Shown one piece after another: positions 23,394 to 38,840 of a DNA stretch of 46,529 nt (position 1 is the first letter of the stretch; each line of letters opens with the position of its first letter). Origin of the DNA: Gammaproteobacteria bacterium (GTDB lineage: Bacteria; Pseudomonadota; Gammaproteobacteria; QNFE01). The stretch spans positions 1-46,529 of the forward strand of contig QNFE01000010.1 in the NCBI GenBank assembly GCA_003645455.1. Direction: 5' to 3'. A program made the position numbers and the translations under genes. The notes under the pieces are model-generated. The model saw only the letters and a program-made list of their open reading frames with translations, was not told where the DNA came from and searched no databases.

Positions 23394-23634
23394 ATCATTG
23401 CAACGACTGCGAGCGTGGCAATCTTGTATCTTATAGAGGCAAACGGACACCAAAAAAAGAACCCGTCATTGCGAGCATAGCACGGCAATCTCTTGTTAGT
23501 ATACGGATAACAACAAGAGATAACCACGGCGTTTTATTATCTTGCATTACATATTTATTCCGTCCGCCTCGTTATGACGGATTATTTTTAAGAGGTCGCC
23601 ACATTCTGCTTCGCTGTATTCATAATGACGGGGC
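23394..23634. repeat. Interspersed palindromic repeat copy abutting the activase stop
   Basis: Contains CCGTCATTGCGAGCATAG, GCAATCTCTTGTTAG, AACAAGAGATAACCACGG, CCGCCTCGTTATGACGG and a final CATAATGACGGGG. Several partial units are mixed in both orientations. The right edge lies two bases from the stop codon of the giant activase gene. The rest of the 23289-23635 gap is pepA upstream sequence. Confidence 0.8.
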
Positions 23635-23635
23635 T

Positions 23636-26600
23636 CTATGTTTTTGCATAAAACCTTACTGGGTTTAATTGTTTTAAGATCGCAGTTGTAATCTGGTGCT
23701 CGTCGATGTCACCTAATTGTGAAAAAATATGTTCAATGCTTGTTTTTATCTCTTTTTTATCTAAGATAGCAGGGGTTATAACCTCTGCCATTGAGGACAC
23801 CATACAACCTTGCGGTGCTACATTAAAAATAATATCATAATCTTGTTTTATCTTTAACATAACTTCGCCGATATAAGGCAATAATTCGCCATCTGGCAAT
23901 TGAGTTGGTATTATTTTTTTTGATTCTGTCATGACAGATTGAATATCTTCTGGCATTTTAAGGTTACAAACATTATACAAAGGTTTTGCTAAGAATCCTC
24001 GCAAAGACGACAACACTCCCTGATATGATTTTATTTTTAATTCCAGTTTTTTTATTTTTTTATTATTTATTTTTGCCATATTGTTATGTTTTATTATGGA
24101 CTTATTGATTTCAGCAATATAGCCATATAACAGATATTCAAAGTAACTCCAAATGGGGGTATGAGTTAGATTAAAACTATTAAAACCTAAGGTTTTTAAG
24201 ATTACTTGATGAATTTCTTCAATTTGTGCAATTCGCATATATGCCTCACCATCAATATGAATTTTTATATTGTTTTTACTGGTTTCTTGCTGACACCAGG
24301 TTTTGCTAAATATTTTTAATTTGCGTTCTAATTTTTTGGAATATAGTTTATAAATAAAATATTTTAAAATAGGGGTTATTATCGGAGTATTGTCGATAAC
24401 ATCTGTTATTTTTAATAATTTTTTATTCGGTTTTAATTCGTGCTCTAAGATGTGATAAATATCAGTTTTTAATTTTAAAAATTCTTTAATAAATTCTTCA
24501 TATTCGGTATGATTTATGCATTGACTACTGCCGTTAAATTTCAACTGGTGCAAGATTCCTTGAATTATAACACCTTGAATTGCTCGGATATGTGACCACT
24601 GGGGCAGACCTATATCAAACCCTGAATCCTCCGAGGCTACCAAAAATTGCATAGTTAAGTCATCAGTTGTTTTATTATTTTTATTTTTGTCTGCCTGTTG
24701 TTTTTCAAATATTTTATGGGTTTCAACATATTGCCCCTGCCGACATGGTCCTGCCCCTTTGTTGTTAAAAATAAGACATCGTGTTTTGTTGATAAAATCT
24801 GGATGATTTTGTTGTTTTTTGGCTATAAAATCCTCTTTGGCATTTAGTATGTCACCGTATACAGCAGCCAGAGGTGCGCAGACCGCCGAGCCTGAATATT
24901 GACGCCCTTTTACTATCGCGGATTGCAAACTATAATTTTCATCATAGTTATCAATGCAAACAAAACCTGCACTGCGGATGACGGAAGTTAAAACTCGGTT
25001 ATCACTGAGAGTGGGAAAATAAATAACATCAGTTTCTGGATTTAATTTCTCTTTGTTGCTAAATTTATCTAAGATCCTAATATCAAAATTATTGTCGTTA
25101 TCGTTTAATAGATCTTGATGAATGTTATTTTTTAATTGTTTGGTATAGGTATTTACTCTATTTTCTAAATGAGCAAGTTCCTTGATGGCGGCGTCTGATT
25201 GAATAAATAAAAATGGGCGATTTTTGGTTATCTCTTGAATAAGTGGTAAGGTAGTGCTATCAGGACCACACATAAAAGACGATACCTGCACGACCGGAAT
25301 TGTTGTGTCTGTTTTTTCAATTTGTTTAAAAAGGCTTGCTAATTTTTTATGCTTTAAAACTGTATGCAGTTTTTTATCGGTAATGGCAGATATGAGCGAG
25401 CTAATAAAGTGCGGATTTCTCCAATATAAGTGTTTAAAGTTTTTATTTAACTCAATATCAAAAACATAACTCGGAATCGTTATCATATTCTTGTCTCGCA
25501 ATAACCTACCCACATGGCTGTCATAAATACCAGGGTTTAGGATATATTCACGAGCAGCTATAATTGCAACTTCTAAATTATTATCAACTGCATATTGAAT
25601 ATAATCCGCTGCTATATCGGCTAATTCATTTTTAAAATCAGCCTGTTTTTTGATGGCTTTATCAAGAATTAAAATAAAATCAGTTGTATTTATGTCTATT
25701 TTATAGTGAGAGAAAATAGCTTTTAGTTTAGGGTATAAAACAGGGGCAATAACATCAGCTTTTAAATCACTAAGGTCAATATCAAAAACACAAAAACGGG
25801 CGTTCTTATTTTCTAATTTACCGAGTTTTTCGCCAAGTGCCATCCCCCCTTGGTTAATCGTGCAGGTTTTGGCTAATGATGGGTTTTTATCATTTTTATC
25901 TCTTGGTAAAAATTCAATTTGAGGGGCTATTATTATACCGTGTTCTTCGGTGGCAAGCCTTTTAAATTGTCCGACCGCACCAATTTGAGGGGCACAGGTA
26001 TCAATATTAAAATCAGCCTGGGCGTTTATTATATCTTGCTCTGTAATATTATCAACATATATCGGAATATCAAGTTGCCCGAAGATGTTTACAAAAAAAG
26101 TCGCCCACTCAGATACCACAAAAGTTCTGGGAATAATAAGGCGATTTTTATCCTCGCTTTTTGGCATTTGTTTGTCAATATGTTTATAAATTGATAAATA
26201 GGTATTTTCTACTTTTATTTTTGGCTTGTGGATTTTTATGACAAATTCGTTGATGGCACTACAACCGCCGAGCTTGAAGTTAAAACTTTTTTTATTTTCA
26301 TCAAAACTTGTCAAGGATGAGCGATTACAGCGAGCAGATTTGTCGCCACATACTGCCCCCTTACATTGAATTATCTTTTTTCTGTATTCTTTATCAATAA
26401 AACTTTGTAGTTTAATAGTTACATTACTATTATCTGTGGTAGGCATAGATTTTTGTAGCCCAATACAGGCTCTGTGTCCGGGGTTAGGTGGCACTAAACA
26501 ATATATATTGTCTTTGGTAAAAGTTTGTAATTTGCTCGCCACCGCCAAGGGCAATGGTTTTGATAACATTGTTTGACCATGTAATAATGCGACTGTGTGT

Positions 26601-28312
26601 TTGGGGATTTGAATCTGGTTCCATAAACTTGATGACATATTTTCAACAATAGCCCAGTTAGACGAGGCTAAGATTTCGTCAATTTTTACTCCATGAGCTT
26701 GTAATCTGCGGGCATTTTCCATCAAAAAAACAGCACAGGTGGCATTGATTTGAAAGCTTTTATCGGCTTTATATGCCATATTTGTGGCTGTTTCTATATC
26801 TTTGATTTTAAATAAAGCTCCTAAGGTATCCATAAGTGAGCCTGTGCCTGCGGAACATTTTACATTCATCGCATTATCAAAAAGTTGGGTTTTCTCCAAA
26901 GCGATTGATGATATTTTGGTGTCTTCGCCACCTATATCAATTAAAATACAAAAATCTTCATTGATATTTTTAACTCCTTGTTTTTTTAAATGCTCGATAT
27001 GTTTGCGAGCATAGTCAATCGAGCCTAATGCATGAGCATAATTTTCGACCAAAATATGCACCTTGTCCTTTATATCAGGATAAACTTTAATCAAAGATTG
27101 TTGCACTTGGTATCTTGCAGAGCCTGTAATGCCGATATTGTTGATTAAAATCTCATCAGATCCAAAGTTTTGAATATCTTTAAAAATAGCTTTGATTGTA
27201 TCAATCGTATCGCCTGAATTGCCATAGGATTGAATAAATAATATTTCATTGTTAGCAGCATCAAGCACAACAAGTTTCGCCATAGTCGAGCCTACATCTA
27301 AACCCATAAAAAGCGGTTTATTGTCAAGAGAGTTTTTTGCTATTTTTGCTAATTTATAATTATCTAATTTATAAAATAGATGGTTTGATGATAGCTCTTT
27401 TTCAATATTAGAGAATGATTCATATTCTTTGAGTTGAGTTATGTTGTCAGAAAAACTATTAGTTTTAAAGTTGTTATCACCTACTGCTTTGTCAAGATAA
27501 GCCATTCCTTTAATGATAAAATTTTGATATTTATCATAAATAATTTTTGTTTGGTGCAGTTGTTGCAGATAATCTGTGGCACAATCACGAGCAAATTGCC
27601 AGTTAAAGATTCCACCTGTTAAAGCAATAACATCAAAAACACCATTTAATTTTTTGCAAGTTTTTAAAACCTCGCTTTTAATCGTAACTGCCAAAGCAAA
27701 GTCCAAAGGAATGCCTTGGTTTTTATCAGATATAGTCGCAGATGATGAAAAAACGCCACACCTATCGGCACGAATATTGACATCTTCACGAGTTTTTTTG
27801 TTATCGTCACCGATATATTTTTTAAGAACTTTATCTACATCTTCTCTTTTTATATTAAGTTTTTGCAAAATACGGTCAAGATTTATCCCAGAACCTGCAC
27901 CGCAAGTAGGGTTTTGCACCAAGGCATTTTTTTTAAGTTTACCGTGTTCGTCAAGACCTATAATTTTATAACCAGAGGCGGATAATTCAATAATAGCCAC
28001 TGGATGGTTTTTGTGTTGGGAGGCGATATGAGTGGCTACCATCCACAGACAAGCCGTTGATAGGACGGACAAACTATGGGGTATGTTTTTTTTAATAACC
28101 TCTTTTAAGCCACCAGTTGTCAAAACTTGAATGTCATTATCCAGATTTAATAAATTATATTTTTTGAGAATGTTTTGAAGGTTATCATTGCTATTTTCGA
28201 CAAGCTCTATTATTTTTTTGCCACTTGAATCATAACCTGCTATTTTTGTTAAAACGACACCAGCATCAATATGTAGTTTTTTTAATTCAGTAGTTTTATT
28301 GGCACTATTCAT
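23636..28312 (-). CDS. Giant fused acyl-CoA dehydratase activase-like protein
   Basis: A 1558-residue fusion. Residues ~10-280 are a degenerate BadF/HgdC-type ATPase domain (NPTCGAGSGINLDRIL with C137; C185). Residues ~335-620 are a better-conserved second copy: GLDVGSTMAKLVVLD, DIGGEDTKI, VKCSAGTGSLMD (C486) and NATCAVFLMENAR (C526), the latter pair matching the [4Fe-4S] ligands at the activase dimer interface. A Cys cluster follows (650, 655, 662, 684), then DUF2229/HgdB-like parts with IPRTFVVSEWATFF, FMCGPDS (C1015), GPCRQGQY (C1190) and VAPQGCMVSSMAE. Such 1400-1500 residue proteins occur mainly in anaerobes and are thought to be ATP-driven low-potential electron carriers; the reaction is unknown. 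No clear ribosome site. Confidence 0.88.
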   Translation of the reverse strand: MNSANKTTELKKLHIDAGVVLTKIAGYDSSGKKIIELVENSNDNLQNILKKYNLLNLDNDIQVLTTGGLKEVIKKNIPHSLSVLSTACLWMVATHIASQHKNHPVAIIELSASGYKIIGLDEHGKLKKNALVQNPTCGAGSGINLDRILQKLNIKREDVDKVLKKYIGDDNKKTREDVNIRADRCGVFSSSATISDKNQGIPLDFALAVTIKSEVLKTCKKLNGVFDVIALTGGIFNWQFARDCATDYLQQLHQTKIIYDKYQNFIIKGMAYLDKAVGDNNFKTNSFSDNITQLKEYESFSNIEKELSSNHLFYKLDNYKLAKIAKNSLDNKPLFMGLDVGSTMAKLVVLDAANNEILFIQSYGNSGDTIDTIKAIFKDIQNFGSDEILINNIGITGSARYQVQQSLIKVYPDIKDKVHILVENYAHALGSIDYARKHIEHLKKQGVKNINEDFCILIDIGGEDTKISSIALEKTQLFDNAMNVKCSAGTGSLMDTLGALFKIKDIETATNMAYKADKSFQINATCAVFLMENARRLQAHGVKIDEILASSNWAIVENMSSSLWNQIQIPKHTVALLHGQTMLSKPLPLAVASKLQTFTKDNIYCLVPPNPGHRACIGLQKSMPTTDNSNVTIKLQSFIDKEYRKKIIQCKGAVCGDKSARCNRSSLTSFDENKKSFNFKLGGCSAINEFVIKIHKPKIKVENTYLSIYKHIDKQMPKSEDKNRLIIPRTFVVSEWATFFVNIFGQLDIPIYVDNITEQDIINAQADFNIDTCAPQIGAVGQFKRLATEEHGIIIAPQIEFLPRDKNDKNPSLAKTCTINQGGMALGEKLGKLENKNARFCVFDIDLSDLKADVIAPVLYPKLKAIFSHYKIDINTTDFILILDKAIKKQADFKNELADIAADYIQYAVDNNLEVAIIAAREYILNPGIYDSHVGRLLRDKNMITIPSYVFDIELNKNFKHLYWRNPHFISSLISAITDKKLHTVLKHKKLASLFKQIEKTDTTIPVVQVSSFMCGPDSTTLPLIQEITKNRPFLFIQSDAAIKELAHLENRVNTYTKQLKNNIHQDLLNDNDNNFDIRILDKFSNKEKLNPETDVIYFPTLSDNRVLTSVIRSAGFVCIDNYDENYSLQSAIVKGRQYSGSAVCAPLAAVYGDILNAKEDFIAKKQQNHPDFINKTRCLIFNNKGAGPCRQGQYVETHKIFEKQQADKNKNNKTTDDLTMQFLVASEDSGFDIGLPQWSHIRAIQGVIIQGILHQLKFNGSSQCINHTEYEEFIKEFLKLKTDIYHILEHELKPNKKLLKITDVIDNTPIITPILKYFIYKLYSKKLERKLKIFSKTWCQQETSKNNIKIHIDGEAYMRIAQIEEIHQVILKTLGFNSFNLTHTPIWSYFEYLLYGYIAEINKSIIKHNNMAKINNKKIKKLELKIKSYQGVLSSLRGFLAKPLYNVCNLKMPEDIQSVMTESKKIIPTQLPDGELLPYIGEVMLKIKQDYDIIFNVAPQGCMVSSMAEVITPAILDKKEIKTSIEHIFSQLGDIDEHQITTAILKQLNPVRFYAKT

Positions 28313-28391: not shown

Positions 28392-29138
28392 TTATCTTAA
28401 AATTTTATTAGTTATGGAGTGAGTATGGTTGTGTTTATGGGTATAGATTGCAGTATCTGGTATTTTTACTCCGGTAAATAATTTTTTATACTCTGGGTGT
28501 TGCAGAACATTTTTGGGAGTGCCACTACAACATATATGACGATTAAGACATATTACTCGCTGAGATTTTGCCATCACCATATGTAAATCGTGTGATACCA
28601 TAATAACAGCAATATTAAATCTATGGCTTATCTGCGATATAAGATTGTAAATTTTATTTTGTCCACTAATATCCATCGAGCTTGTAGGCTCATCAAGAAT
28701 TAAAATCCGTGGGATGTTCATAATGGCACGCACCAATAAAACTCTTTGAATTTCACCGCCTGATAGACTCGTGATTTGTTGTTTTAAAATATTTTCTATT
28801 TTTAACTCTTTTAAAAGGTAATTATGAAGATGAATATTTTGTTGTTTATTTTTATATAAATTTAAAAAATAAGATACCTTAATAGGCAACAATGATGGCA
28901 CATTAATTTTTTGAGGAAGATAGCCAATTTTTAAATTCTTAGGGCTAAAAATCTTACCGTTATTGGGTTTTTCTAACTTCATCAAAATTTTTAAGAGAGT
29001 AGTTTTTCCAGATCCATTGGGCCCTATAATCGTGACAATTTCACCACTATTTATTTGCAAATTAATATCTGACAAAATAACTTTTGATTTTTTGTGAACA
29101 TGAATGTTGCGGGCTACTATAAGGGGGCGACTTTTCAT
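28392..29138 (-). CDS. znuC: Zinc ABC transporter ATP-binding protein
   Basis: A 248-residue ABC ATPase with Walker A GPNGSGKTTLLKI, signature LSGGEIQRVLLVRAIM, Walker B ILILDEPTSSMD and switch His VSHDLHMVMA. The C-terminal IYTHKHNHTHS is His-rich, and ICCSGTPKNVLQHPEYKKLF resembles ZnuC, so a zinc (or Mn/Fe) importer is likely. The start overlaps the gpsA stop by four bases. No znuB or znuA is encoded in the window, so the permease must be elsewhere. Confidence is high for the ATPase, moderate for zinc. Confidence 0.8.
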   Translation of the reverse strand: MKSRPLIVARNIHVHKKSKVILSDINLQINSGEIVTIIGPNGSGKTTLLKILMKLEKPNNGKIFSPKNLKIGYLPQKINVPSLLPIKVSYFLNLYKNKQQNIHLHNYLLKELKIENILKQQITSLSGGEIQRVLLVRAIMNIPRILILDEPTSSMDISGQNKIYNLISQISHRFNIAVIMVSHDLHMVMAKSQRVICLNRHICCSGTPKNVLQHPEYKKLFTGVKIPDTAIYTHKHNHTHSITNKILR

Positions 29139-32572: not shown

Positions 32573-33370
32573 TCAAAATCTTTGTATGTTTATATCATCA
32601 GCATAAATTGTTTTTATGCCAGTGGGGGTTTTTACAAGCAAAGCTCCGCTATCATCAACCCCATCTGTTATGCCTGTGATATTTGTGCTGGTTTTAATTT
32701 CTTTGTTATATAAAAAATCTAATTTTTGCCATTTATCTTGCATTGAGATAAAACCTTGTAGATGATAATTATCAAGCATAGGGATAAGCCGATTTAATAT
32801 CTGGCTTATAATTAGATTACGATTTATCTCTTTAATTTCATCACTTTTTTTGCACTGCGACAAGTTTATCCAGTTTTGTTTAATATTATTGTTGGTATTT
32901 TCATCTGATACCATATTACAATTTATGCCAACTCCTATAACAACTTGACTATTTTTTTGAATCAATTTTCTCTCAATCAAAATCCCACCGAGTTTTTTGT
33001 TGTTATAAAACAAATCATTCGGCCATTTTATCTGGATGCCTGAAAATCCAAGACTTTGCAAAGCCTCAATAATTTTTATGGCAACCGATAAAGATAAAGC
33101 CGATATGCAAGATGGCTCCTCGCTAAAATACCAACGCACAGATAAATAAATATTACTCTTATCAGGCGACACCCAATTATTACCGCGTCTGCCATATCCT
33201 GCTGTTTGTTGGTCGGTTATACATACCAAATTTTTGCTATGATGAGTTTTATCATTCAATAAATAATCATTAGTAGAATTTATTTGAGAAAAAACCTGCA
33301 ACTCATCAATCAGGTTTTTAACCTCATAATCAAGTTTGGTTATTATTTTATCTTTGGCAAGCTTTAACAT
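32573..33370 (-). CDS. birA: Biotin-[acetyl-CoA-carboxylase] ligase, no DNA-binding domain
   Basis: Biotin protein ligase of 265 residues without the N-terminal winged helix of E. coli BirA, so probably not a repressor. Motifs: FSQINSTNDYLL, TDQQTAGYGRRGNNWVSP (biotinyl-AMP loop), IKWPNDLFYNNKKLGGILIE, and IGVGINCNM. It should modify the biotinyl domain of the pyruvate carboxylase in this window and any acetyl-CoA carboxylase elsewhere. The start overlaps the upstream gene by 23 bases. Confidence 0.93.
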   Translation of the reverse strand: MLKLAKDKIITKLDYEVKNLIDELQVFSQINSTNDYLLNDKTHHSKNLVCITDQQTAGYGRRGNNWVSPDKSNIYLSVRWYFSEEPSCISALSLSVAIKIIEALQSLGFSGIQIKWPNDLFYNNKKLGGILIERKLIQKNSQVVIGVGINCNMVSDENTNNNIKQNWINLSQCKKSDEIKEINRNLIISQILNRLIPMLDNYHLQGFISMQDKWQKLDFLYNKEIKTSTNITGITDGVDDSGALLVKTPTGIKTIYADDINIQRF

Positions 33371-33689
33371 AAGCCCACCCTTGATTGCCAGATTTAAACT
33401 TTACCATTTTACGCATATAATCTTTAACTTCGTATTTATCAGCTTGATGAAGTTCTGTGGTGCTAATCTCAAACACGATGCCCGCAACCTCATCTGAATT
33501 ATTGCCAGTATATCTCAAAATAGGATGAATATCAGTGCCACTTGTTTTTATAACTTCTTTATCTTTTATCCTTATATCTGAAATTACAAACCCCATTAAA
33601 ATATCTTCAACCCCATCTAACTTTCTGCCAAATAGTTCTTGTTGCACCTTATCCATCTGCAAAGTCCCATATGAGAATAATCTCTCCAT
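33348..33689 (-). CDS. Gamma-glutamylcyclotransferase-like (AIG2/GGCT) protein
   Basis: A 113-residue protein beginning LFSYGTLQMDKVQQELFGR, the substrate-loop signature of the GGCT-like fold (YGTL). EVAGIVFEIS and LHQADKYEV hold the acidic residue expected in the active site. AGAGGA precedes the ATG. The family removes gamma-glutamyl groups or has unknown roles. It overlaps birA and is probably its operon partner. Confidence 0.82.
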   Translation of the reverse strand: MERLFSYGTLQMDKVQQELFGRKLDGVEDILMGFVISDIRIKDKEVIKTSGTDIHPILRYTGNNSDEVAGIVFEISTTELHQADKYEVKDYMRKMVKFKSGNQGWAYVKACQR

Positions 33690-33789
33690 AATTGTTTGTC
33701 CTCTTCTTATTTTTAACTCGTTCCCATTGGGGACGATGGGGACGGGTCCAATAGTGTTTTTTGTAAAAAAATGTTATTTTACATTATTT

Positions 33790-33945
33790 TGTTATTTTTT
33801 GTTCGTTTTAATGAGATGTGTAGGGGCGGATTCCATATCCGCCCACAATGAATACGGATTTTAAAAGATTGACAAATACGGAACACTATAAAAGTTTGTC
33901 CGTTTTGCCATAGACCACCGCAGTTATCTCTTTGTGTGTCCGTCC
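33790..33945. repeat. Second repeat type with GGGCGGAT hairpin plus a partial interspersed repeat
   Basis: TTTTTTGTTCGTTTTAATGA, then TGTAGGGGCGGATTCCATAT and CCGCCC, where GGGCGGAT and ATCCGCCC form a stem. A related stretch at 34748-34790 carries the same Ts and GTTCGTTTTAATGAGAT joined to the complement of TAGGGGCTTGATTCCATAT. A partial unit (GACCACCGCAGTTATCTC) follows. The 33690-33950 gap holds nothing else recognisable. Confidence 0.55.
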
Positions 33946-33950
33946 TGTCT

Positions 33951-34370
33951 TTAATGAAAAGGATTGATTATTTTTATTTGTAAATTTTTAAAATCTTTTG
34001 TGTTTCTGGTAACCAATGTAAAATTTTTTACTATACAGGTAGCACCTATTAATGAATCCATAACAGGAATTTGTTTGCCTTTTGATTTTAATTTCTGATT
34101 TATTTCGCCCCATTTTATCATTACATCAACATCAATAGAAATAATTTTATCATTAAATTTTTCAATCAAATCTGTGGCAAGCCAGTGTCATAGTTTTTCT
34201 TTTTTATCTGTTTGTTTTAGTTTTTCTATGCCGGATTTTATCTCACCTATCGTTATAACAGACAAGAACATTTTTCGCTCATCGGTATTTTTGATAAAAT
34301 TAACAACATTCAAATTTGGTTTTTTTGAAATTAACTCTGATATTATGTTAGTGTCAAGCAAATAATTCAA
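33951..34370 (-). pseudogene. PIN-domain toxin (VapC/FitB-like) with in-frame TGA
   Basis: The reading frame starts MNYLLDTNIISELISKKPN, with PIN acidic residues D6 and E12, and has GEI (E43). It meets a TGA at codon 61 (34188-34190), then continues in the same frame with HWLATDLIEKF and PVMDSLIGATC, containing the downstream PIN acidic residue, and LVTRNTKDF. The whole frame is 140 codons including both stops, normal PIN length. A single nonsense change has inactivated it. It overlaps the antitoxin by four bases. Confidence 0.82.
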
Positions 34371-34591
34371 AATTCAAACCTATCTTTGTGTTGGTTTTTT
34401 TCTCTTTTTGTTGTTATATCAACACCAACCAAAGGACTATTTTGAAAAAAGTCTACAACAGAGTTTTGTTTTTTTCTTTTAATAGGCTTTAAAGATACCT
34501 CTATATTTTTGTTAATATAATCAGCTGGAATTTTTAAATTATATGTTTTTGCAGATGGACGGATAATTGTTGTTAACATTTTTAATCTCAT
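34367..34591 (-). CDS. Antitoxin of the PIN-toxin module (VapB-like)
   Basis: A 74-residue protein directly before the PIN toxin with an ATGA overlap, the normal toxin-antitoxin arrangement. The start RLKMLTTIIRPSAKTYNLKI looks like a small beta-strand DNA-binding antitoxin; KIPADYINKNIEVSLKPIKR resembles antitoxins with a SpoVT/AbrB-like or similar fold. An AGGAG six bases upstream supports the ATG at 34591. With the toxin broken, it is no longer under obvious selection. Confidence 0.65.
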   Translation of the reverse strand: MRLKMLTTIIRPSAKTYNLKIPADYINKNIEVSLKPIKRKKQNSVVDFFQNSPLVGVDITTKREKNQHKDRFEF

Positions 34592-34654
34592 AAAAAACTC
34601 CTACTTTAACACAGATAGTTTTTTAAAATAAGATTTTTGTAAAATTATTCATTT

Positions 34655-34951
34655 CGTCACTGCGAACGAGCTTGCGAGTGTGGCAGTCTCTTTTGTTGTC
34701 CGTTTTCTTGATGAGATCGCTTCGTTCCTCGCGATGACGGGATTTTTTTGTTCGTTTTAATGAGATATGGAATCAAGCCCCTACGGTTGTATGCAAATTT
34801 TATCTTTTCAATTGTCAATTAATAAACGGACGATAGGAACAGTTCAAAATTATTTGTTTCGTCACTGAGAACGAGCTTGCGAGTGCGGCAGTCTCTTTTT
34901 ATTATCCGTATATTAACAAGAGATTGCTTCGCTACCGCTCGCAATGACGGA
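34655..34951. repeat. Two interspersed palindromic repeat units
   Basis: Unit 34655-34741 runs CGTCACTGCGAACGAGC to CTCGCGATGACGG, and unit 34860-34951 runs CGTCACTGAGAACGAGC to CTCGCAATGACGG. Both carry GGCAGTCTCTTTT and GAGATTGC or its close variant. Just beyond, AATAGTTATTTTACAGTCT near 34993-35012 resembles the outer end seen at 32481 and 2608. Together with the second repeat type between them they occupy most of the 34592-35037 gap. Confidence 0.8.
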
Positions 34952-35037
34952 GATTTTTTTTGAGCCTGTTCTATCTATGTCAGACTGCGACAAATAGTTA
35001 TTTTACAGTCTTTTTGAGTTGGAACGAGCGGAAAATA

Positions 35038-35094
35038 TTATTTTTTATAAAATTTGCCTCGCTCCCCTTTTGAAAAATTATAATTGTCTTGCAT
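35038..35094 (-). pseudogene. N-terminal stub of a small antitoxin-like gene
   Basis: Reads MQDNYNFSKGERGKFYKK and stops. The pattern (D/N)Y-FSKG-RGKFY is the conserved start of many small CopG/ribbon-helix-helix type proteins paired with toxins, which normally continue for ~50-60 residues. Here the rest has been replaced by repeat-like sequence. It begins 12 bases after the 58-residue gene. Confidence 0.5.
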
Positions 35095-35106
35095 AATTTA
35101 CCCTCA

Positions 35107-35283
35107 TCATATTTTATATTTTTTTTCAATCTCTTGTTGTTTTGTTGCCCTTTGCGATTCTGCTCGTTTTATACCGCAAGAAATTTTTTCTTTAACAAAT
35201 AGTTGATATTGAATATCCTCCAAAGAGCAATCGTCTGGCATTTTTTCAAGATGAGAGATAACATTCTGTCTAATTGTAATCAT
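35107..35283 (-). CDS. Small antitoxin-like protein, 58 residues
   Basis: Reads MITIRQNVISHLEKMPDDCS, then LEDIQYQLFVKEKISCGIKR and a charged end. The pattern of a short helix, LP-D-(T/C)S-EDI-Y-LYV-EKI--GI is common to small antitoxins that precede ParE/RelE-type toxins. No such toxin follows; the next ORF is an 18-residue stub. No strong ribosome site is seen. I call it an orphan antitoxin with moderate confidence. Confidence 0.6.
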   Translation of the reverse strand: MITIRQNVISHLEKMPDDCSLEDIQYQLFVKEKISCGIKRAESQRATKQQEIEKKYKI

Positions 35284-35310
35284 AGTTTTTTATAAGGGAT
35301 TAAAAAACAA

Positions 35311-35360
35311 ACATCATAACACAAAACAAAATTCAGGCTTGTTTTTTGAACTATTTTTAA
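35311..35360 (+). repeat. Left short direct repeat flanking brnTA
   Basis: ACACAAAACAAAATTCAGGC, then TTGTTTTTTGAACTATTTTT. A close match in the same orientation lies at 36021-36069 on the other side of the BrnTA module. AACAAA and TTGTTTTTT also form a weak stem with a U-run, so both copies could be terminators. Confidence 0.5.
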
Positions 35361-35450
35361 TCACCGTATTTATTTGAGCTAGCAGAGTGGGAACGAGTTC
35401 ACAACAAAATTATTTGAATTTGATTTTTATAATAGAGTAAAATAGGCAGA

Positions 35451-35729
35451 ATGCAACAGATTAAATTTGAATGGGATGAAAACAAAAATCAAAACAACAT
35501 AAAAATAAGAGATATTGATTTTAATATTGTTAAAAATTTTGATTTTCAATCTGCTTTAATTATTGAAGATATTCGTTATGACTATGGCGAAAAAAGATAT
35601 TCTGCAATAGGTTATATTACATCTTTTTTGTATGTTTTGATTTTTTCATATCGCAACAATGCAATAAGAGTGATTAGTTTGAGGCGAGCTAATAAAAAAG
35701 AGAGGATAAAATATTATGAAAAAAAATGA
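35451..35729 (+). CDS. brnT: BrnT family ribonuclease toxin
   Basis: A 92-residue RelE-fold toxin. IKFEWDENKNQNNIKIRDIDF is the BrnT start (EWD-NK--N--KH), then a hydrophobic strand, and VISLRRANKKERIKYYE at the C-terminus, where the Arg residues form the active site. BrnT cleaves mRNA and is neutralised by BrnA. The usual His of the NxxKH motif is Ile here (NNIKIRD), so activity may differ. The stop overlaps the brnA start by 14 bases. It lies between short direct repeats. Confidence 0.9.
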   Translation: MQQIKFEWDENKNQNNIKIRDIDFNIVKNFDFQSALIIEDIRYDYGEKRYSAIGYITSFLYVLIFSYRNNAIRVISLRRANKKERIKYYEKK

Positions 35730-35958
35730 ATTAGTGGATGATGAAAACCCGCAATGGAGTGATGAAATGTTTGAAAAGGCAACAAATGTTGAAAATAGCA
35801 CACTGCCATCTGACATTAAACAGGCACTTTTGAATAATAGTGACAACAAAACATCTGTTAAAATTTCTCTATCAAATGTTGTATTGGATTTTTATAAAAA
35901 AATGGGTGACAGTTGGCAGGACAAAATAAATAACGATTTGTTGGTAAATGTTCGGTAG
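35716..35958 (+). CDS. brnA: BrnA family antitoxin
   Basis: An 80-residue antitoxin with DDENPQWSDEMFEKATN, the usual NPEWTDEMF-type start, and a C-terminal ribbon-helix-helix (TSVKISLSNVVLDFYKKMGDSWQDKINNDL) that binds DNA and the operon's own promoter. The start overlaps brnT, with AGAGGA 11 bases upstream. Together the pair looks intact, unlike the VapBC-like module nearby. Confidence 0.9.
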   Translation: MKKNELVDDENPQWSDEMFEKATNVENSTLPSDIKQALLNNSDNKTSVKISLSNVVLDFYKKMGDSWQDKINNDLLVNVR

Positions 35959-36020
35959 ATTTGGACTCTTTCTTGCTGATACAAAAATATAAAATTAAAT
36001 ATTGCAAACATTAACACAAC

Positions 36021-36069
36021 AACATAAAACAAAAATACAGGTTTGTTTTTTTAACTATTAATTTTTAAC
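36021..36069 (+). repeat. Right short direct repeat flanking brnTA
   Basis: AACATAAAACAAAAATACAG, then GTTTGTTTTTTTAACTATTA. It matches 35311-35360 with a few differences. It is followed by an AT-rich run of ACTATTAA/ACTATCAA words up to the end of the LRR operon. Confidence 0.5.
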
Positions 36070-36107
36070 TATCAACTATTAACTATCAAATGCCATAGGT
36101 TGTTTTT

Positions 36108-37106
36108 TTAAAAAGGAATATTATCGTTATCGGTTATGTGGTTTTGTTGTCGTAGTTTTTCTTTTTCAATTTTTACATCACAATCGTTATCTTTTAATTC
36201 TTCAATCCAGTTTTTTTGTTCGTTCGTTAATGTTAAAATTTTGTTACTAAATAGCGACAAATAATTCAAGCTCGTAAGTTTTATGATTTCTGCTGGTAGT
36301 TTTGCGAGCTTGTTTTCGTCAATATGAAAATTTATCAATTGAGTTAAATTGCCAATTTCAGGTGGCAACTCTACAAGATTGTTTGTACAAACATTAAGAT
36401 GTCTCATTTGAGTTAAATTACCAATTTCTGGTGGTAGTTCTGTTAGTTGGTTGCCAACAATATTTAGAAAAGTGTTGCTACCAACATCAAGTTTTGTCAA
36501 TTTGATTAAATTACCAATTTCTGGTGGCAGTTCAGTGAGTTTGTTTTGATAAACCCAAAGCCCTGTCAATTGAGTAAGTTTAAAAAGTTCTAATGGCAAT
36601 TTTGTTAGTTTGTTACTACCAACATCAAGTTCTGTCAATTGAGTAAGTTTAAAAAGTTCTAATGGCAATTCTGTGAGCTTATTCATATTAACACTAAGCT
36701 CTGTCAATTGAGTTAAATTACCAATTTCAGGGGGCAATTCTGTGAGATTGTTGTGAGAAACGTCAAGTTTTGTCAATTTGATTAAATTACCAATTTCTGG
36801 TGGCAATTCCATGAGTTTGTTGCCATAAAATAATAAACCGTTATTAATGCGAAGTATTGTCAATTTGGTTAAATTACCAATTTCAGGGGGCAATTCTGTG
36901 AGATTGTTTTCACTAACATCAAGTTCTGTCAATTGAGTGAGTTTGCCAATTTCTGCTGGTAGTTTTGTGAGTTTGTTGCTCTCAACATTAAGATCTGTCA
37001 ATTGTAACAATTCATCTTTATTTCTCGGTAGTTTATCCTCTTTTATATCGTTCTCATCCGCCCACTCCCATAACCGCTCCATCCAACCATTATTTTTCTC
37101 TATCAT
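36108..37106 (-). CDS. Leucine-rich repeat protein with near-identical 69-bp repeats
   Basis: From the ATG at 37106 the product is 332 residues. An N-terminal cap (WMERLWEWADENDIKEDKLP, then RNKDELLQLTDL) is followed by about ten 23-residue repeats of the type LPPEIGNLTQLTELDVSENN, and a C-terminal cap LTNEQKNWIEELKDNDCDV. There is no signal peptide or membrane segment, so it is probably cytoplasmic. Neighbouring repeats are nearly identical at DNA level, e.g. units starting 36563 and 36632. The longer frame back to 37205 overlaps the upstream gene and is rejected. Last gene of a three-gene operon. Such LRR proteins bind other proteins; the partner is unknown. Confidence 0.85.
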   Translation of the reverse strand: MIEKNNGWMERLWEWADENDIKEDKLPRNKDELLQLTDLNVESNKLTKLPAEIGKLTQLTELDVSENNLTELPPEIGNLTKLTILRINNGLLFYGNKLMELPPEIGNLIKLTKLDVSHNNLTELPPEIGNLTQLTELSVNMNKLTELPLELFKLTQLTELDVGSNKLTKLPLELFKLTQLTGLWVYQNKLTELPPEIGNLIKLTKLDVGSNTFLNIVGNQLTELPPEIGNLTQMRHLNVCTNNLVELPPEIGNLTQLINFHIDENKLAKLPAEIIKLTSLNYLSLFSNKILTLTNEQKNWIEELKDNDCDVKIEKEKLRQQNHITDNDNIPF

Positions 37107-37147
37107 AATTTTATCCAAAAAAAAGCAATTATAACAAAAACTTATTT

Positions 37148-37807
37148 TTAAATTCGTTGATTTTTTTTTATATGCTCTTTTGTTTTTTTGACATATTTCA
37201 AACATTTTATTTTTGATTTTTTAAATAACAGCATTGAATCAAGTTCATTGATTTGTTGCCATATTTGATGGGCTTGTTTTTTATCACAGAATTTAACATT
37301 CTCATGAGTTGAAATTGGAAATATTAATTTAATATCCATTTTCACAAAATTCGATAAAGCAAAATTGATTACATAATATTCTTCTATTTTTGGAATCGTT
37401 GGTGGTTGCTTATATGGTATTTTAACACCTATTTTTGCAGTTTCTTTCTTTAATTGCTTCAGACAAGAATAAAGTTTATTAATGTTTTTTTGCAACTGCT
37501 TTAAATCACTTTTGCATTCAGTCTTCAAAATTACAAATACATCTTTGTTTTCGTATTCTGTGATTGTTGTTGCTATCTTTCCTATATAACTTTCAATGTC
37601 TCCAATGGTATTATTTTCTAATGATTTTATAAGTTCCGTTATTGGGCTTGATAATTTTTCCATCAATGGTTTTATTGCTTCTGCTTTCTTTGTTTTTTTA
37701 TCATAATATTTTTTTGCATAAAAACCTATTACAGGCACCACAAAAGATACAATTATAGCAATTATCTCAATTATGTGCTGTTTAATGCAAGTGATTATTT
37801 CAGTCAT
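37148..37807 (-). CDS. Membrane-anchored protein between two LRR genes, unknown function
   Basis: A 219-residue protein with one N-terminal membrane helix (about residues 12-31, IIEIIAIIVSFVVPVIGFYA) followed by a Lys-rich stretch that should keep the rest in the cytoplasm. The remainder is helical and charged, with a possible coiled coil at ~85-125 (LKTECKSDLKQLQKNINKLY). I recognise no domain. AGGAG lies six bases before the ATG. Ten bases separate it from the upstream LRR gene and 41 from the downstream one, so the three are likely one operon. Confidence 0.75.
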   Translation of the reverse strand: MTEIITCIKQHIIEIIAIIVSFVVPVIGFYAKKYYDKKTKKAEAIKPLMEKLSSPITELIKSLENNTIGDIESYIGKIATTITEYENKDVFVILKTECKSDLKQLQKNINKLYSCLKQLKKETAKIGVKIPYKQPPTIPKIEEYYVINFALSNFVKMDIKLIFPISTHENVKFCDKKQAHQIWQQINELDSMLLFKKSKIKCLKYVKKTKEHIKKNQRI

Positions 37808-37817
37808 GGCTCGCTCC

Positions 37818-38840
37818 TTAAAGAATTATTTTAAAATTATTAGGCAAATTAACAATACATGAATTTTTAGTTTTTAAGTATTCCATCCAATTGTTTTGCT
37901 CTTGTGTTATTTTTAAAATATAATTACATTCATTTATGTTCGTTAAATCTATACATTGCAATTGTTTTAATTTTATAATATTTTTTGGTAATTTTTTAAT
38001 TTTATTGTTGTTAAAGTGCAGTTGAAATAAACTCTCTGGAAAGCAAAATTTATCATCTAATTGCTCGATGTCATTATAGTTGATGTATAAAAATCTTAGG
38101 TTTTTTAGGTTTTTTATGCTATCTGGCAATGATGTCAAACGATTATTGTTTATCTCTAAATAATTTAATTTTGTTAAATTTCCGATTTCTTTAGGGATTG
38201 TTTCCAATCCAATTTTGTTAATTCTTAATATTTCTAAATTTGTTAGATTATCAATTTTGTTAGAAATTGTTTTGAGTTTGTTTGTTGATATGTTTAGCTC
38301 ATAAAGTTTTGGTAAATTAAATAATTTATCTGGCAACTCCGTCAAATTATTATCATTTAAAATTAGTTGCTCTAAATTCGTAAGTTGCCCTATTTTTGAT
38401 GAAATTTTACTTATCTTATTATCGGAAAAATCAAAAATTCGCAAATACTTCAAATCATATAAACTATCAGGTAGTGTTTTTATTTCATAATTGCGAAATA
38501 TAGATAAAATGGTTAGTTTTGAAAGATTGCCAATATTTTCAGGTATGCTCTCTAAATCATTGTCATGCAAAAATAATACATCTAAATTTATTAGATTACA
38601 TAGTTCGTCTGGAATTGCTTTGAGGTTATTGTTGCAAAAATGTAGCTCAGTAAGGTTTGTTAGTTTGCCAATTGCTGGTGAAATATAGTCTATATTTGTG
38701 CCGTATATTTTTAATTCAGTTTTTTTCAATAAATCTTCTTTGTTTCTTGGCAGCATATCTTCTGATATCTTATATTCATTAGCCCAATTGAAAATTTCAT
38801 TAAGCCAGTTGTCGTTAGTTTTTGTGGTGTTGTTTTTCAT
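37818..38840 (-). CDS. Leucine-rich repeat protein, divergent paralogue
   Basis: A 340-residue LRR protein with the same plan as the one at 36108: an N-cap WLNEIFNWANEYKISEDMLP then RNKEDLLKKTEL, about 11 LRRs of 22-23 residues (LPDSLYDLKYLRIFDFSDNK type), and a C-cap ITQEQNNWMEYLKTKNSCIV. The repeats are diverged from one another, unlike its neighbour. AGGAGA precedes the ATG. First gene of the operon, with a plausible promoter upstream. Likely cytoplasmic; function unknown. Confidence 0.87.
   Translation of the reverse strand: MKNNTTKTNDNWLNEIFNWANEYKISEDMLPRNKEDLLKKTELKIYGTNIDYISPAIGKLTNLTELHFCNNNLKAIPDELCNLINLDVLFLHDNDLESIPENIGNLSKLTILSIFRNYEIKTLPDSLYDLKYLRIFDFSDNKISKISSKIGQLTNLEQLILNDNNLTELPDKLFNLPKLYELNISTNKLKTISNKIDNLTNLEILRINKIGLETIPKEIGNLTKLNYLEINNNRLTSLPDSIKNLKNLRFLYINYNDIEQLDDKFCFPESLFQLHFNNNKIKKLPKNIIKLKQLQCIDLTNINECNYILKITQEQNNWMEYLKTKNSCIVNLPNNFKIIL

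Follow-up and report, generated by a model that had tools for sequence, protein, structure and literature searches.

The locus and its surroundings

The stretch of DNA analysed here (the window, 46,529 nucleotides) makes up the full length of contig C10 in a 2.06-Mb draft genome that is 98.4% complete. Its minus strand carries a gene of 1558 uninterrupted codons, running from an ATG at 28312 to a stop at 23636. A Pfam search of the product gave matches above the curated cut-offs to BcrAD_BadFG (1.2e-16, in two stretches) and DUF2229 (7e-16); the NCBIfam activase model TIGR00241 matched below its cut-off. The intact 1558-residue activase fusion reported in a preliminary description of the locus was thus confirmed. 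The following features were defined:

23636..28312, minus strand: predicted single-chain activase/reductase gene, 1558 aa (open reading frame; Pfam BcrAD_BadFG and DUF2229; full-length homologues at 43-54%)
27338..28291, minus strand: ASKHA domain 1, residues 8-325, with C137 and C185 (hhalign to ASKHA 2 and to E. coli YjiL; motifs)
26393..27325, minus strand: ASKHA domain 2, residues 330-640, with C486 and C526 (phmmer to 4eht/1hux; motifs; matches of the N-half model)
26171..26395, minus strand: linker, residues 640-714, with C650, C655, C662 and C684 (C650, C662 and C684 invariant in 43/43 aligned sequences)
25058..26170, minus strand: HgdB-like half 1 / DUF2229, residues 715-1085, with Cys 773/817/1015 (Pfam DUF2229; weak DCCP profile matches; YjiM signature)
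23639..25060, minus strand: HgdB-like half 2, residues 1085-1558, with Cys 1145/1190/1503 (hhalign to half 1)
28392..29138, minus strand: ZnuC-like ABC ATPase, 79 nt upstream of the fusion gene and in the same orientation
23464..23490, plus strand: repeat copy CGTCATTGCGAGC..., a dispersed intergenic repeat and no boundary mark
850, 2560, 19111, 19237, 23465, 32433, 34937 and 39146: repeat core GTCATTGCGAGC

Cotranscription of the ZnuC-like gene with the fusion gene is possible, judging from their arrangement. Lipid A genes, bamA, rseP, secB and gpsA lie around the fusion gene and accord with a Gram-negative proteobacterium. Across distinct lineages of the subfamily described below, no conserved neighbours were found, the flanking genes being unrelated. 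A cluster of ABC-ATPases shared between loci in the all-against-all comparison was considered as a functional clue and rejected as a superfamily match: to judge by their operon context beside sufB, the proteins encoded in L039 and L055 are SufC-like; the one in the window is ZnuC-like. Since neighbours are unrelated between lineages, the fusion gene would act alone or with partners encoded elsewhere.

The content of the host genome was determined family by family with profile searches. PF06050 (HGD-D) had no match in the entire genome, and PF01869 matched the fusion gene alone, leaving no second activase. Next to the fusion gene, neither a CoA ligase or CoA transferase nor a gene of an acyl-CoA pathway could be identified. 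Both observations agree with the preliminary description, which had noted neither a dehydratase partner nor a CoA-related gene nearby. Two haem-copper oxidases, dsrA and rnfC are also encoded, and this gene content suggests a sulfur metaboliser that respires oxygen and possesses a ferredoxin-linked Rnf complex.

Domain organisation and cysteines

In anaerobes, this kind of ATP-powered iron-sulfur enzyme is usually assembled from several separate proteins. The window protein has the order ASKHA-ASKHA-linker-DUF2229-second HgdB-like half in one chain, and looks like an entire activase and dehydratase machine (HadI2 plus HadBC type) fused into a single polypeptide.

Comparison of ASKHA 1 with ASKHA 2 by hhalign (prob 99.2, E 1e-19) aligned C137 with C486 and C185 with C526 and showed, at the level of sequence profiles, that the two domains are an internal duplication. 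E. coli YjiL matched ASKHA 1 with a probability of 99.6. Each domain has two Fe-S-type cysteines, as in the activases of the BCR I/HAD superfamily (class I benzoyl-CoA reductase / 2-hydroxyacyl-CoA dehydratase). The preliminary description was right about the two ASKHA domains and about Cys 486 and 526 of the second; its attribution of the cysteine pair to the second domain alone has to be corrected, as C137 and C185 of the first are invariant Fe-S-type cysteines too. That earlier reading had missed this pair and also the internal duplication of the reductase half.

Inspection of the motifs revealed intact phosphate loops in ASKHA 2 (GLDVGSTMAK, DIGGEDTK) and degenerate phosphate-1 and -2 loops in ASKHA 1 (IDAGVVLTK, ELSASGY). 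The ASKHA 1 loops are degenerate across the subfamily; they are degenerate in distant fusions too, but differently. ASKHA 1 is thus probably a weak or dead ATPase, its inactivity being deduced from the motifs, and the protein probably has one canonical nucleotide site (ASKHA 2) and one non-canonical site (ASKHA 1). The predicted model of the N-half (pLDDT 87.6, pTM 0.87) had as its top nine PDB matches, including 4eht, 9gai, 1hux and 7yyl, exclusively activases or the DCCP reductase component, namely activators of 2-hydroxyisocaproyl- and 2-hydroxyglutaryl-CoA dehydratase, ATPase subunits of 3-methylbenzoyl-CoA reductase, and DCCP-R.

The C-terminal half is likewise an internal duplication according to profile comparison, with three cysteines per copy. 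Half 1 matched half 2 with a probability of 93 (E 3.5e-7, hhalign), while six permuted or reversed controls as well as unrelated ones gave at most 0.5%. C773 aligned with C1145 and C1015 with C1503; C817 and C1190 were two columns apart. Around C1015, half 1 gave weak profile matches to DCCP (7yyl_C/6eno_A), and the C-terminal signature of YjiM aligned with half 1. No kinship of half 2 was detected with the single YjiM sequence; it emerged solely when the two halves were compared with each other and in the search for similar folds.

The cysteines were followed in an alignment of 43 sequences (17 subfamily members and 26 distant homologues). Ten of them (650, 655, 662, 684, 773, 817, 1015, 1145, 1190 and 1503) are invariant in 17/17 aligned members; all but C655, which occurs in 14/26, are also kept in the 26 distant homologues. 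C244, C616 and C1265 are invariant in the subfamily and peculiar to it. The claim of a fusion to DUF2229/HgdB-like parts with further conserved cysteines was thereby substantiated. The four-Cys linker is a possible additional Fe-S or metal site.

For the predicted model of the C-half (pLDDT 87.4, pTM 0.87), the five best Foldseek matches among 350,542 PDB chains were all HadBC or BzdNO (prob 0.69-0.99). This fold link is remote, with weak E-values of 0.008-0.1 and low TM-scores that do not exceed 0.43 by target. Sequence and model together point, remotely, to a catalytic module of the HgdB kind in which three cysteines would bind the cluster, as in the BCR I/HAD superfamily. HadB and BzdO hold one [4Fe-4S] cluster via three cysteines and water; the double cubane of BzdN is bound by six cysteines (PMC11971306). 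Because three cysteines per half are invariant family-wide, the predicted sites would be of the HadB/BzdO rather than the DCCP type, unless the linker contributes.

The protein can be set against two known systems. It resembles HadBC and its activator HadI (PDB 3o3m, 4eht) in activase fold, Cys pairs and a three-Cys site per HgdB-like half, HadBC being the top, though remote, fold match of the predicted C-half; HadI, however, is a homodimer apart from the HadBC heterodimer, whereas the window protein is one chain without a CoA pathway nearby. With DCCP/DCCP-R (6ENO, 7YYL) and E. coli YjiM/YjiL, the activase domain is clearly homologous and the match around C1015 weak. A double cubane requires six cysteines within one subunit, as in BzdN (PMC11971306); the window protein has three family-wide invariant cysteines per half, to which the four of the linker may add.

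The protein could be a true one-chain 2-hydroxyacyl-CoA dehydratase or aryl-CoA reductase acting on an acyl-CoA. The nearest solved relatives of its C-half, HadBC and BzdNO, are CoA enzymes, and the three cysteines per half are as in HadB/BzdO. No acyl-CoA genes were identified beside it, however, and the varying neighbours among distinct lineages imply no pathway; this assignment is quite unlikely. The separate HGD-D subunits of a 2-hydroxyacyl-CoA dehydratase are absent from the genome.

A reductive activase or repair factor was also considered, the C-half of which would dock on and reduce a metalloenzyme or corrinoid protein, or serve in Fe-S cluster handling. Such a general housekeeping role would fit a gene that is solitary everywhere and that adjoins sufB-type genes in Lamellibrachia symbionts. 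ATP-dependent corrinoid reducers are known to exist (PMC6739815). The C-half, however, resembles the catalytic HadBC/BzdNO subunits and not a docking domain, and the suf linkage is found in one lineage only; we regard this role as unlikely.

Relatives, distribution and history

A scan of the genomes of 84,980 species yielded at least 20 relative loci at 43-54% identity, mostly full length where the contig permits, followed by a drop to about 23%. Subfamily members scored at least 1026 bits (BLASTP, longest piece), and the best distant fusion reached 229 bits with the subfamily profile. By these sequence comparisons, the relatives form a discrete subfamily with a wide gap to the ordinary fusions of ~1450 aa (about 21-23% identity), which we take to be the COG1924 + COG3580 + COG3581 type annotated as 'acyl-CoA dehydratase activase'. 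Domain order and core cysteines are common to both groups, but subfamily proteins exceed the ordinary ones by about 100 aa and have invariant C244, C616 and C1265 of their own and other ASKHA 1 loops.

The hosts are scattered over tubeworm symbionts, Betaproteobacteria, Nitrospirota, Desulfobacterota and Campylobacterota MAGs. Most host labels derive from metagenome bins, and some of them may be wrong (Parcubacteria, Falkowbacteria, Cloacimonadota); firmer are those of a Lamellibrachia symbiont, placed on a Hi-C scaffold, and of chromosomes from Nitrospirota and Burkholderiales. The window genome is the sole subfamily carrier among 399 sampled genomes of its phylum. In the family of the tubeworm symbionts the gene occurs in 4/96 genomes, and any DUF2229 protein was found in 13/369 genomes of the class. 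Among 21 subfamily hosts, dsrA and rnfC were detected above cut-off in 8 and 12, respectively, and COX1 was detected in 12; as none is universal, a link to a single lifestyle was rejected.

Two copies were irregular. One (L124, G834:C49:27939-32544), from a genome related to those of the tubeworm symbionts, is broken by three in-frame TGA, through decay or sequence errors. In the Lamellibrachia barhami symbiont (L055, 8935-14970), two pieces both encode residues about 751-1045, representing a partial duplication or an assembly fault.

Carriage by plasmids or phages was rejected: no subfamily match was found among 72,556 plasmids or 50,697 phage records, nor among viral contigs searched with the bare protein sequence. 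One IMG/VR contig (L127, 1-7815) has a full-length copy at 44%. As it lies at the contig end and adjoins phage-like genes, it is probably bacterial DNA flanking a prophage. A literature search described no function or reaction for the fusion family within the searched library and terms, in agreement with the earlier statement that its reaction is unsettled. The branch is rare and scattered, and apparently undescribed.

In the phylogenetic tree, relatives cross phyla, and the window protein groups with a cross-phylum set with support of 82/95, which is not strong; its end branch is 0.76 changes per column and its best identity 54%. Within the limits of the model, and with skewed composition in many alignment rows, the AU test rejected a clade of the window protein with the Lamellibrachia symbionts and the other gammaproteobacterium, L052 (p 1e-49), as well as one with the Lamellibrachia symbionts alone (p 2e-4). 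The vertical gammaproteobacterial clade that would have spoken against recent transfer was thus looked for and rejected, and a horizontal history is supported. Codon use (excess 0.001) and GC (0.331) are like those of the neighbouring genes. The repeat noted on the 3' side is present, but it does not mark an acquisition boundary, since its core occurs in eight copies in the window against 0.09 expected, with further copies elsewhere in the genome. This dispersed repeat is similar to REP-like elements. Because of the cross-phylum tree, native codon use, long branch and dispersed repeat, an old horizontal spread is likely from the sequence data and a recent arrival is not. The recent acquisition formerly proposed, and with it a recent transfer from anaerobes, was abandoned on the grounds of codon use, composition and branch length.

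The rarity and patchiness of the gene (1/399 in the phylum; 4/96 in the symbionts' family, one of them interrupted) could betray a gene that serves no function in the window host, whether recently acquired, carried as a passenger or decaying. The frame is intact, though, all cysteines are retained despite the long branch, codon use is native and relatives are under strong purifying selection (dN 0.011, dS 0.141 in tubeworm symbionts), so that this explanation is highly improbable.

Proposed mechanism

The protein is probably a ferredoxin-fed member of the BCR I/HAD superfamily that uses ATP to drive low-potential reduction within a single chain. Domain order, both duplications with their controls, Cys invariance, remote fold kinship and the absence of a separate partner (HGD-D or second activase) emerged from the analysis itself and argue for this reading, together with the model matches, rnfC, the purifying selection and the relatives reported in PMC11971306. 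Clusters, electron path, ATP use and electron donor are taken over from what is known of the family. ASKHA 1 and ASKHA 2 would form an intramolecular pseudo-dimer sharing one [4Fe-4S] cluster (C137, C185, C486, C526), which reduced ferredoxin would load; Rnf is encoded in the genome. Hydrolysis of ATP, probably at ASKHA 2 alone, would cause a shape change that pushes single, very low-potential electrons into the two HgdB-like halves. Each of these would hold a [4Fe-4S] cluster at its three-Cys site with the fourth iron position open, where the substrate would be reduced. The four-Cys linker may serve as an electron wire. A small molecule seems slightly more likely as substrate than an acyl-CoA. 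The remote fold link of the C-half and the lack of a conserved neighbour speak against the reductase; the oxidases in about half of the hosts, including that of the window, are awkward for an oxygen-sensitive cluster, unless oxygen is low.

A bolder version, possible yet rather unlikely, takes the subfamily for a self-contained, nitrogenase-like ATP-powered reductase whose target would be a small molecule, inorganic or organic. Of its two ATPase sites one would be active and the other a pseudo-site, and the gene would have changed hosts repeatedly among microbes of the sulfur cycle and the subsurface.

Reactions of the BCR I/HAD superfamily, such as Birch-type and small-molecule reductions, are among those of lowest potential in biology. 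In the apparently undescribed subfamily, donor site, ATPase and catalytic clusters are predicted to be united in a single polypeptide that has only one canonical ATP site. If true, it would be a compact system to measure how ATP hydrolysis gates an electron, and one active plus one pseudo-ATPase site would imply an ATP-to-electron ratio unlike that of the activases studied so far. Carriers with oxidases, including tubeworm symbionts, suggest that the machinery is not restricted to strict anaerobes.

Elsewhere in the window, about 2.7 kb (33370-36108) contain no open reading frame reaching 150 aa and gave no match to Rfam. Positions 36108-38840 hold neighbouring genes for leucine-rich-repeat proteins; their GC is low (0.25-0.31), and they may function in host interaction.
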